Below, piece after piece: positions 1 to 6,636 of a stretch of DNA of 24,884 nt. The translations under genes were made by a program, and so were the position numbers. Numbering within the stretch: the first letter of the stretch is position 1; every line of letters begins with the position of its first letter. A model generated the notes under the pieces. That model had not been told where the DNA came from, did no database searches, and worked only from the letters and a program-made list of their open reading frames with translations. Origin of the DNA: a virus; IMG/VR virus record IMGVR_UViG_3300042465_002201, positions 1 through 24,884 of that record; one strand, 5' to 3'.

Positions 1-583
1 TACCAGCCCTCCGAGCCTTGTCAAACATTCCTACAATCTCTGACACCGTTTCACGTGTCCACTTATCTAGGTTGATTAACTCTGATGTTGCGCCCTTACG
101 TGCGTCCCAGTATACACCATACTTAGGACGGACACCGAACACTTCCTCCATGGCTACCGCATAGATACCCAACTGAAAGTCTGATGACGGCATACGTGCG
201 CCAGACTTAATGTCTAGTACCACTAGGTCACCGTCAGGTAACACCATCATGCGGTCAAGTGCACCCTTAACCATGACATCATCAAGGTTAATCGTGAATA
301 CTAATTCAATGGCAGGTTCACCTTGGGGTGTAACCCATAGTTCCAGGTTGTGCCTAGAGTGACGAAAGTTCACCCAGTTGTGCACCATATTTAGACCATT
401 GAACTGCCACCAGTTGCCGTCTTCCTTGTTGGGGTTGGCTATGGTTGCACGTCCACCAGCACGCCACTGTGAGGTGTCGTCCTGCCCCTCAACGGCACGC
501 TGACGGTCTAAGTTCTCTTGCCAGTAGGTAGACCACAACTCATCAGGTGAGTAAATTACAGGGGCTTGTTCTTGTTGTGTCAT
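1..583 (-). CDS. RecB/Cas4-like PD-(D/E)XK nuclease, C-terminal ORF (partial)
   Basis: This ORF starts at the ATG at 583 and runs off the left edge (194 codons visible). It carries the catalytic core of a Cas4/RecB-type PD-(D/E)XK exonuclease: GALDR near residues 107-111, VVLDIKSG at 121-128 supplying the metal-binding Asp124 and Lys126, and a following QLGIYA (137-142) matching the usual downstream Gln/Tyr motif. Family members normally also have an N-terminal segment with one cysteine of an iron-sulfur cluster. That segment is encoded by the separate upstream ORF at 583-786, joined by a TAATG overlap. The end of that ORF contains a GAGGGA Shine-Dalgarno-like stretch about 7 bases before this ATG, which favours re-initiation over frameshifting. 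The expected role is processing of DNA ends in replication or recombination. The C-terminal cysteines would lie outside the window. Confidence 0.82.
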   Translation of the reverse strand, partial: MTQQEQAPVIYSPDELWSTYWQENLDRQRAVEGQDDTSQWRAGGRATIANPNKEDGNWWQFNGLNMVHNWVNFRHSRHNLELWVTPQGEPAIELVFTINLDDVMVKGALDRMMVLPDGDLVVLDIKSGARMPSSDFQLGIYAVAMEEVFGVRPKYGVYWDARKGATSELINLDKWTRETVSEIVGMFDKARRAG

Positions 584-786
584 TATCGTCCCTCGGTTTC
601 CCATAGTTGGCGGTCGTAGGCTTCGGTTGCTTCGTGAACTGCAACACCACCAGCCAACCACCAGGTTTGTCCCTCAGGGACAGCCAAAGCCTTAGACAAC
701 CAATACTTGTAACCACAAGAATTGTATGTACCTATCTGGCTATGGCTAACGTGTACGGGTAGTTCATACCCATTGACCTTAATCAT
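583..786 (-). CDS. RecB/Cas4-like nuclease, N-terminal ORF
   Basis: This is a 67-residue protein matching only the N-terminus of phage Cas4-family nucleases: a Ser-x-Ile-x-Thr-Tyr segment, then CGYKYW (Cys24, the likely first iron-sulfur ligand), then a WWLAGGVAVHEATEAYDR region (about residues 42-59) like the conserved GxAVHxAxE helix. It ends with TAA overlapping the ATG of the ORF that carries the catalytic residues, so the enzyme is divided between two polypeptides. The start has a good AGAGG ribosome-binding site. It is the first gene after a canonical minus-strand promoter (872-900), with a leader of about 80 bases that can form two hairpins. A sequencing frameshift could mimic the split, but the precise TAATG junction and the internal Shine-Dalgarno argue for a real two-gene arrangement. 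Confidence 0.78.
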   Translation of the reverse strand: MIKVNGYELPVHVSHSQIGTYNSCGYKYWLSKALAVPEGQTWWLAGGVAVHEATEAYDRQLWETEGR

Positions 787-5203: not shown

Positions 5204-5554
5204 TTAGCGATTCCAAAAGTAGAACCCGTCCGATTCCCACACGTCCCCACCTAGTTCTAGGTCACGCCCGAACATCTCATAGTCAAAGTACCTAGCAAGT
5301 TCGCCCATAGAATCGGTGTCAATGATGCCTTGGTCTGCCATAAGTTCGCCTAGCCATTGGTGGGCGTTGAACCCGTCCACCTCGCCTATGTAGCACTCTT
5401 GGACGTCCTCTATCCATTCGGCTATGTCGTCCCAGTTGCCCCCAATGTTGCCCCAGTAGGCAAAGATTGCCTTGGCAGGGATTCCGTACTCGTTGGCGTA
5501 GGTGTCCGCCTGCTCTAGTTGGGTGACTGCCGTTAGTTCTAGATTCGTTACCAT
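5204..5554 (-). CDS. ardA: ArdA-like antirestriction protein, 116 aa
   Basis: The C-terminal third matches ArdA antirestriction proteins: LARYFDYEMFGRDLEL (86-101) followed by a short acidic turn and GFYFW (110-114). The central part has WDDIAEWIED and a long acidic stretch with few basic residues, as expected of a DNA mimic that occupies type I restriction enzymes and modification enzymes. Classical ArdA is about 165 residues with three domains, so this form appears to lack the first domain. The start at 5554 has GGAGG 7 bases upstream. A longer frame reading back to 5704 passes through the hammerhead ribozyme and is rejected. Its mRNA would be released with a new 5' end about 50 bases upstream after ribozyme cleavage. 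Confidence 0.8.
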   Translation of the reverse strand: MVTNLELTAVTQLEQADTYANEYGIPAKAIFAYWGNIGGNWDDIAEWIEDVQECYIGEVDGFNAHQWLGELMADQGIIDTDSMGELARYFDYEMFGRDLELGGDVWESDGFYFWNR

Positions 5555-5574
5555 TTTCTTACCTCCATTTTGTT

Positions 5575-5631
5575 CTGACCTCATCAGACACCGCCTCACG
5601 GTGTGACACCCTTTCGGGTGTTTCGGTCTAG
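5575..5631 (-). ncRNA. Type II hammerhead self-cleaving ribozyme
   Basis: On the minus strand every hammerhead core element is present in type II order. Stem II 5' side GACC is at 5628-5625 and GAAA at 5624-5621. Stem III is CACCC/GGGUG (5620-5616, 5611-5607) with a GAAA loop, plus the A5621-U5606 pair. The cleavage base is C5605 (GUC). Stem I is ACACCG/CGGUGU (5604-5599, 5593-5588) with a UGAGG loop. CUGAUGA is at 5587-5581, and GGUC (5580-5577) closes stem II. CU (5631-5630) with AG (5576-5575) extends stem II past a bulged A. Cleavage is predicted between 5605 and 5604. It begins at the UAG stop of the preceding gene and lies upstream of ardA. Confidence 0.93.
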
Positions 5632-5852
5632 TTGTAGGCGTAAGCCTTCGTCTCACGTGCCTTGCGAACTCCGTACTCCTTGCGCCATTCGGCACACTCT
5701 GCACACCAGCACATTCTCACAGGCTGGTTGCTGTCGGATGCCTCGCAGATTGACTTGAAAAATGGGGCTTTGGAATATTCACGCTCTGCAATAAATGCGG
5801 TGGACAGTTCCTCTAGTGCCTCAATCCATAGGTAGCGGTTGTCTTCGTACAT
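5628..5852 (-). CDS. Small Cys-containing protein, 74 aa
   Basis: This is the first gene of the leftward operon. The product has a helical N-terminal half (residues 5-25), then Cys36 and a CWCAEC cluster (Cys48, Cys50, Cys53), which could bind zinc, and a basic C-terminus. The ATG at 5852 is 9 bases after GGAGG, while a longer frame from 5945 has no ribosome-binding site and crosses the hairpin at 5872-5896. Its UAG stop is embedded in stem II of the hammerhead ribozyme. No family was recognised. Confidence 0.6.
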   Translation of the reverse strand: MYEDNRYLWIEALEELSTAFIAEREYSKAPFFKSICEASDSNQPVRMCWCAECAEWRKEYGVRKARETKAYAYN

Positions 5853-6038: not shown

Positions 6039-6060
6039 CTTTACCAGATTGTTATAAAAG
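6039..6060 (-). repeat. Copy of TATAAC-N4-TGGTAA motif
   Basis: Read leftward this is CTTTTATAAC, AATC, TGGTAAAG, the second leftward-pointing copy, 64 bases farther from the genes than the copy at 5955-5975. The spacing between the ATAAC and TGGTAA halves is identical in all copies. Confidence 0.65.
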
Positions 6061-6137
6061 AATTGTGCGCCCTGGATTCCTGGGAGTTGGGGGGGGATAG
6101 TCGCCCACTATGTGGAACTCGTCTATTGTTAATAACC

Positions 6138-6243
6138 TGTGGATAAAGTGTATCCACTCCCTCCCCAGCCCGTCCCCAGCCCTCCCCTGCCTGTGGATAA
6201 GTTATCAACAAGTTATCAACACCTGTGGATAACCTGTGGAAAA
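6138..6243. other. Candidate replication origin: DnaA-box cluster
   Basis: Three perfect TGTGGATAA boxes (6138-6146, 6192-6200, 6224-6232), one TGTGGAAAA (6235-6243) and two TTATCAACA boxes (6202-6210, 6213-6221) occur within 106 bases. A C-rich pyrimidine tract (about 6156-6191) separates the first box from the rest. The cluster lies between the divergent operons and next to an AT-rich stretch, as in bacterial origins. The inference is that host DnaA helps start phage replication here, or regulates the flanking promoters. Confidence 0.7.
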
Positions 6244-6259
6244 CGTATGACCCACCCCC

Positions 6260-6371: not shown

Positions 6372-6392
6372 GTTTATAACAATTTGGTAACG
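6372..6392 (+). repeat. Copy of TATAAC-N4-TGGTAA motif, rightward
   Basis: GTTTATAAC, AATT, TGGTAACG reads on the plus strand, opposite to the other copies, and lies 17 bases upstream of the -35 box of the rightward promoter. Each copy thus points in the direction of the operon it precedes. Confidence 0.62.
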
Positions 6393-6449: not shown

Positions 6450-6551
6450 GTGCGCTTTGGCGCACACAACCTAATGGCAGCCTTTTGTGGCTGCCTTTAA
6501 CAACGAAAGCAGCCCTTCGGGGGCTGCTATTATGTGCCCCTAAAGGGGCAC
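6450..6551 (+). ncRNA. Array of four tandem hairpins in rightward leader
   Basis: Four perfect stem-loops lie head to tail: GTGCGC/GCGCAC (6450-6465), GGCAGCC/GGCTGCC (6476-6495), AGCAGCCC/GGGCTGCT (6508-6528) and GTGCCCC/GGGGCAC (6534-6551). The first and fourth share GTGC...GCAC arms, and the second and third share GCAGCC. Only the second is followed by TTT, so they are not simply terminators. The array is untranslated and sits between promoter and first gene. Antitermination, RNA stability or small RNA production are all possible. Confidence 0.55.
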
Positions 6552-6636
6552 TTATATAGGTTCTTTTTATATCATTTTATTTAGACATGATTTAGCGGTG
6601 GATGCTAAATTAAATTAACCCACTTAGGAGAGCCAA

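Follow-up and report, generated by a model that had tools for sequence, protein, structure and literature searches.

The window analyzed here, a viral DNA stretch of 24,884 nucleotides, encodes a WhiB protein, a PD-(D/E)XK exonuclease, a terminase, a portal protein, an HslV-like peptidase and a capsid protein. The nearest isolate terminases are those of two unannotated Caudovirales records, followed by Streptomyces phages; together with the gene content, they point to an actinobacterial tailed phage. The exonuclease gene (positions 2 to 786, minus strand) is split into two open frames, a break that is probably not an assembly error since the relative L002 is split in this way as well, with other DNA separating the two parts. 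A type II hammerhead ribozyme occupies the first junction in the minus-strand operon, between a small open reading frame, for which family searches (Pfam, PHROG) yielded no match, and a gene for an ArdA-like antirestriction protein. This protein scored 39.1 bits against the Pfam ArdA profile (cut-off 27), but the match covers only positions 77 to 149 of the 155 in the profile; it is therefore a short form of 116 amino acids in which the N-terminal portion of the profile is missing, and L002 has the same short form. The features of the junction, all on the minus strand, are:

5628–5852: upstream open reading frame, 74 amino acids from its ATG, frame open to 5945, cysteine-rich, first gene of the operon
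5628–5630: UAG stop codon of the upstream open reading frame (sequence; this offset recurs in 55 of the 110 phage sites among the matches listed)
5577–5628: type II hammerhead ribozyme (Rfam RF02276; model R1, 72 bits; covariation)
5625–5628: 5' strand of stem II, GACC, partner GGUC at 5577–5580 (sequence; stem II covaries in relatives)
5622–5624: core G12, A13 and A14 (sequence)
5606–5621: stem III hairpin ACACCC-GAAA-GGGUGU, opened by A15.1-U16.1 (sequence; pair changes in relatives)
5604–5605: predicted cleavage site C5605/A5604, after C17 (5605; GUC triplet, from the hammerhead consensus)
5588–5604: stem I hairpin, loop I starting at U5598 (sequence of relatives)
5581–5587: core CUGAUGA (C3 to A9), with N7 being U5583 (sequence)
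5575–5587: alternative hairpin CUGAU-GAG-GUCAG, predicted in the 3' product (comparison and folding)
5561–5566: Shine-Dalgarno sequence GGAGGU of ardA (sequence)
5204–5554: ArdA-like antirestriction gene, start at 5554, 116 amino acids (Pfam ArdA, 1.5e-9; PHROG 2059, 6.5e-10)

Read from 5628 to 5577, the ribozyme has the sequence GACC-GAAA-CACCCGAAAGGGUGU-C-ACACCGUGAGGCGGUGU-CUGAUGA-GGUC. Every invariant base of the hammerhead core (CUGANGA, GAAA and UH, together with the pairs A15.1-U16.1 and G10.1-C11.1) is present, and the strand order, with stems III and I closed by loops and stem II open, is that of type II (Hammerhead_II). Stem II consists of 4 bp (G5628-C5577, A5627-U5578, C5626-G5579 and C5625-G5580), stem III of 6 bp (5621–5616 with 5611–5606, A15.1-U16.1 being 5621-5606) around a GAAA loop, and stem I of 6 bp plus a U-G pair (5604–5598 with 5594–5588); the folding z-score is −2.9. 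The first-pass annotation, made from the letters alone, had described a complete type II hammerhead, and the intact core and the covariation reported below bear out this description with its sequence and coordinates. The cut that it predicted between C5605 and A5604 agrees in its GUC triplet with the hammerhead consensus, the stable hairpin that it expected at the new 5' end corresponds to stem I, and the ribozyme does fit between the UAG stop (5630–5628) and the next ribosome-binding site (5566–5561). The upstream stop codon lies 25 nt before the predicted cut and the next start about 50 nt beyond it, so that neither reading frame would be damaged.

When the window was compared with the 4227 families of Rfam, RF02276 was the sole meaningful match (32.2 bits, E = 0.0049), and matches to SNORA68 and RFPL3-AS1_2 were taken as chance. 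With RF02276 alone as the query, the window gave an E-value of 1.1e-6, while none of 14 control genomes was matched. The covariance-model hit that had been proposed as a check was thus obtained, but at a score under the RF02276 gathering cut-off of 37 bits. We therefore file the ribozyme as a type II variant, type II by its strand order and outside the score of the curated Rfam family. A model built from 42 phage relatives (R1), a training set that includes the window itself, scored 72 bits at the ribozyme and 12 bits at the next best place in the window. The Rfam cut-off recovers none of the eight hammerheads of contig L171 and three of the 11 of contig L208 (both described below); it overlooks many phage hammerheads, and present annotation consequently undercounts them.

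Viral contigs were searched with a pattern restricted to the core and stem II (GACC-GAAAC-N-GUC-N-CUGANGAGGUC), stems I and III not being required, and more copies exist than are listed. More than 119 stretches in viral contigs match the pattern without its leading TA. Among the matches listed, 42 diverse phage rows had all of their 628 pair cells paired (100%), with 176 two-sided changes, while only 29–38% were paired when the partners were slid by one to three columns. A second set of sites, which differ in the sequence of stem II, displayed two-sided changes in stem II as well (498 in total), with 99.8% of the cells paired in an alignment that was fitted to the model and is hence biased towards it. 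Two bases that the pattern did not specify, the A preceding stem II and the U that opens loop I (U5598 in the window), are invariant (42 of 42 among the matches listed), and a third, the A following stem II, is present in 41 of 42. Near relatives of the window phage carry the same ribozyme with changed pairs 1.1 to 2.1 (A-U, G-C, U-A) and a shorter stem III. Such covariation in independent phages excludes a chance arrangement and establishes the ribozyme structure by comparison. We also considered the segment as coding sequence, given that no stop interrupts the ardA frame upstream as far as 5704, and rejected this candidate: the ribozymes of the window and of its relatives are unequal in length by 2 nt, and the changes track pairs, not codons. 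A stricter form of the pattern matched contigs of just two of about 85,000 host genomes, and a BLAST search of isolate phages with a 67-nt stretch returned only one weak match, in Streptomyces phage Hank144.

The G of the UAG stop codon at 5630–5628 is the first base of stem II, and this arrangement is the commonest one (55 of 110) among the matches listed that have enough flank for position counts. In 100 of these 110 sites the upstream stop codon falls within −12 to +2 of stem II, as compared with 9.1% of random places in the same contigs; in 95, the stop is combined with a Shine-Dalgarno sequence and start within 70 nt, mostly 19–27 nt past stem II (random, 2.9%). UAG makes up 61 of the 100 stops adjoining ribozymes among the matches listed vs. 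21% of the stops of long frames in the same contigs. The fit is less tight in the second set, where 106 of 119 sites fit the stop and 76 of 119 the stop with a Shine-Dalgarno sequence and start, against 12 and 5% at random. Comparison thus places these ribozymes between cistrons; since compact phage genomes alone favor a tight fit, the site statistics speak to position and not to mechanism.

Some phages carry the ribozyme in series, with a copy at the majority of their gene junctions. In the 8.2 kb contig L171 (3034–6292, plus strand), eight tandem type II hammerheads punctuate a gene cluster, nearly all of them with the upstream stop abutting stem II and a start codon 13–27 nt after stem II. 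In the 67.6 kb phage contig L208 (171–5158, minus strand), 11 type II hammerheads are found within 5 kb; in many of them stem III starts with GGCGCGC, which gives the impression of copies derived from each other. We found no report in the open-access literature of strings longer than a triple hammerhead arrangement.

The bases after stem II in the window complete the sequence GUCAG, a partner of core CUGAU (5587–5583 with 5579–5575). Among 281 distinct sites, 113 obtain UCAG by joining the terminal UC of a stem II strand to a following AG (referred to here as the direct class), and 53–56, depending on the exact rule, have a separate UCAG past stem II, usually as GUCAG or AUCAG right there. The tail is missing in 115 of the 281 sites and also in the relative L030, and it is therefore not essential. 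In the separate-tail sites, core base N7 and the base preceding UCAG (N') form C-G in 32, U-A in 20 and other combinations in three cases; this amounts to Watson-Crick pairs in 52 of 55 (Fisher p = 7e-13), while permutation gave a mean of 28 and a maximum of 41. Because related sequences inflate such p-values, we also give the figures after thinning to 85% similarity (12 C-G, 13 U-A, two other; p = 2.7e-6); the strictest cut, 75%, leaves too few sites for the comparison of N7 with N'. Four clusters of similar sites each hold both C-G and U-A. Moreover, the AG after stem II is present in 113 of the 134 strands with a UC end vs. 44 of 147 others (p = 6e-21; 1e-7 at 85% redundancy), and 42 of the 147 strands without the UC end carry RUCAG instead. 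N7 is a pyrimidine in all 166 sites able to form the hairpin vs. 103 of 115 elsewhere.

Position N7 is otherwise free in hammerheads. The alternative hairpin excludes both the active core and stem II, and pairing of N7 with N' is impossible in the active core. The covariation of these two bases therefore argues that selection probably acts on a hairpin that cannot coexist with the active fold. A literature search found no report of it, which is weak evidence of novelty. Folding of the 3' product gave the CUGAN-N'UCAG hairpin a probability of 0.97–1.0, with the hairpin beginning at the base after stem I. In the uncut RNA of the window the hairpin is likewise predicted at 0.93, vs. 0.06 for stem II, and the medians for the two classes of sites are 0.78 and 0.97, all from folding energies that omit tertiary contacts. 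On these figures, a restraining effect of the hairpin on the ribozyme before cleavage is equally conceivable.

Watson-Crick pairing of loop I with the tail, which would form a pseudoknot, showed no excess in tail-bearing sites (19 vs. 14.3 ± 3.3 expected) and a slight excess in sites without the UCAG tail (19 vs. 9.9 ± 3.0). Being not above chance in most sites, it was rejected as a general feature. The invariant U of loop I and the A next to stem II hint at a contact of the reverse-Hoogsteen type.

We propose that the hammerhead would act in cis and cut the polycistronic, probably early, minus-strand RNA between its first and second cistron. The stem III hairpin, bearing a 2',3'-cyclic phosphate, would then form the 3' end of the upstream mRNA, and stem I, bearing a 5'-OH, the start of the downstream one; the two products would stay joined just by the 4-bp stem II and by tertiary contacts. 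Refolding of the downstream piece would pair core CUGAU with the GUCAG just downstream, right beside stem I, and would either remove the stem II strand, as in the direct class, or compete with stem II. With stem II dismantled, the cut would become irreversible and the two mRNAs would part. The downstream mRNA would start with two adjacent hairpins, which, judging from general knowledge of bacterial RNA decay, should resist decay starting at the 5' end. Cleavage in the cell, trapping of the product, and an effect on mRNA stability or gene dosage are what we infer beyond the comparisons; that the genes are early and their control timed, as the first-pass annotation had it, is conjecture. The release of a hidden ribosome-binding site by cleavage was considered and rejected, for the predicted access to the Shine-Dalgarno sequence is about equal before (0.60) and after (0.56) the cut.

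We lean, by somewhat more than an even chance, towards this intercistronic cut followed by refolding of the downstream end into a product trap, and regard as possible, at a clearly lower probability, that the hairpin instead acts before the cut, as a brake or timer. RNA still uncut when the UCAG tail emerges from the polymerase would have its core trapped and remain polycistronic, and the fraction of cut and uncut message would thereby be set. The predicted precursor pairing favors the hairpin, the tail is made just a few nt after stem II, and the hairpin excludes the active core, all of which fits a brake; yet the energies ignore the tertiary contacts (the invariant loop I U and the A on either side of stem II) that speed natural hammerheads, and arrays of eight to 11 copies look built for cutting, not for waiting. 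It is less probable still, and in our judgment unlikely, that the ribozyme is a plain intercistronic cutter as envisaged in 2011, when long phage transcripts were proposed to be processed into gene-length mRNAs (PMC3088659), with the UCAG tail serving as a protein site or 5' stabilizer only. The many sites without the tail agree with this reading, which nevertheless leaves the covariation of N7 with the base before UCAG unexplained. As to the broader proposition that widespread phage type II hammerheads contain a built-in switch, in which a covarying N'UCAG tail sequesters the catalytic strand CUGAN7, either once the RNA is cut or in place of cutting, and that strings of up to 11 of them cut gene clusters into single-gene mRNAs, we hold the arguments for and against to be evenly balanced.

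Two further readings concern the locus itself. That the segment is a hammerhead-like chance sequence or an inactive relic might be read from its score under the Rfam cut-off, but the near-perfect pairing, the abundant compensatory changes in independent phages, and operons with copies at every junction make this exceedingly improbable. We also think it quite improbable that the ribozyme specifically times or dampens ardA, a tie that the placement of the ribozyme had initially suggested. In its favor, ardA lies downstream in the window and in L002 and L027, the Agrobacterium and Legionella cases are known (PMC3088659), and genes downstream of phage hammerheads encode ArdA in four of 102 cases vs. 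none of 141 control genes from the same contigs (one-sided p of about 0.03). Two of these four stem from a single phage group, that of the window, so that the mild over-representation is suggestive only. On the other side, near relatives (terminase 94–98% identical) have the ribozyme at the same first minus-strand junction mostly with other genes downstream, the genes that follow phage hammerheads mostly lack a functional assignment and share little with each other, and L011 has an ardA gene (62% identical) with no hammerhead before it. About ten of the near relatives covering the junction have the ribozyme and about ten do not, and the flanking genes vary. The hammerhead is thus an optional element of the junction and not a part of ardA, and a special tie to this gene finds no support. 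The gap upstream of the L011 ardA gene contains a strong hairpin, CCCCCCTC-TTTC-GGGAGGGGG, in place of the hammerhead. In 112 kb of hammerhead-free relatives, a search for other ribozyme classes at the same junction gave no Rfam match over the cut-off.

Phage type II hammerheads, even beside ardA, were reported in 2011 (Perreault et al., PMC3088659), and ribozymes of this kind were found to cut themselves both in vitro and in E. coli. The window ribozyme shares with these and with Rfam RF02276 the core, the cleavage site, the open stem II, the intergenic position in phages, the occurrence of several copies flanking genes, and the ardA neighbor, a neighborhood seen in Agrobacterium and Legionella. 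The RF02276 type has a stem II of 1–2 bp and a pseudoknot between loop I and the tail, the latter in the majority, not all, of the known type II ribozymes, whereas stem II of the window has 4 bp and the phage copies have the invariant loop I U, an A flanking stem II on both sides, and the conserved CUGAN7-N'UCAG. Three tandem arrangements were tested and one triple arrangement was described in that study (PMC3088659); in the triple of Agrobacterium tumefaciens, ribozymes likewise occupy junctions around ardA and cleavage was demonstrated in vitro and in E. coli, while the window carries a single ribozyme, at the first operon junction, and other phages studied here have 8–11. Type I and III hammerheads with loop-loop contacts (PMC6155905) share the catalytic core and differ in their permuted strand order and in their viroid and retrozyme setting as opposed to phage operons. 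The ribozyme of the window is itself of a known kind; what goes beyond the 2011 report is the fit to the intercistronic gap, the clusters of 8–11 copies and the alternative hairpin. The alternative hairpin, the missing usual pseudoknot and the long strings set the phage group apart as a new variant. What hammerheads do in prokaryotes has been described as an open question (PMC6155905). The locking of a cut mRNA end by a conserved second fold may help to explain their role in phages, and the stop/ribosome-binding-site fit, the arrays, and above all the covarying hairpin that uses the catalytic strand make a prokaryotic role testable.

Elsewhere in the window, between two divergent operons, positions 6127–6246 hold a DnaA-box-like cluster (three copies of TGTGGATAA and one of TGTGGAAAA) surrounded by a long inverted repeat (6041–6058 and 6373–6390), which together possibly constitute a replication origin. 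Upstream of the plus-strand operon, at 6450–6561, several strong GC-rich hairpins follow each other in a row, some of them terminator-like.
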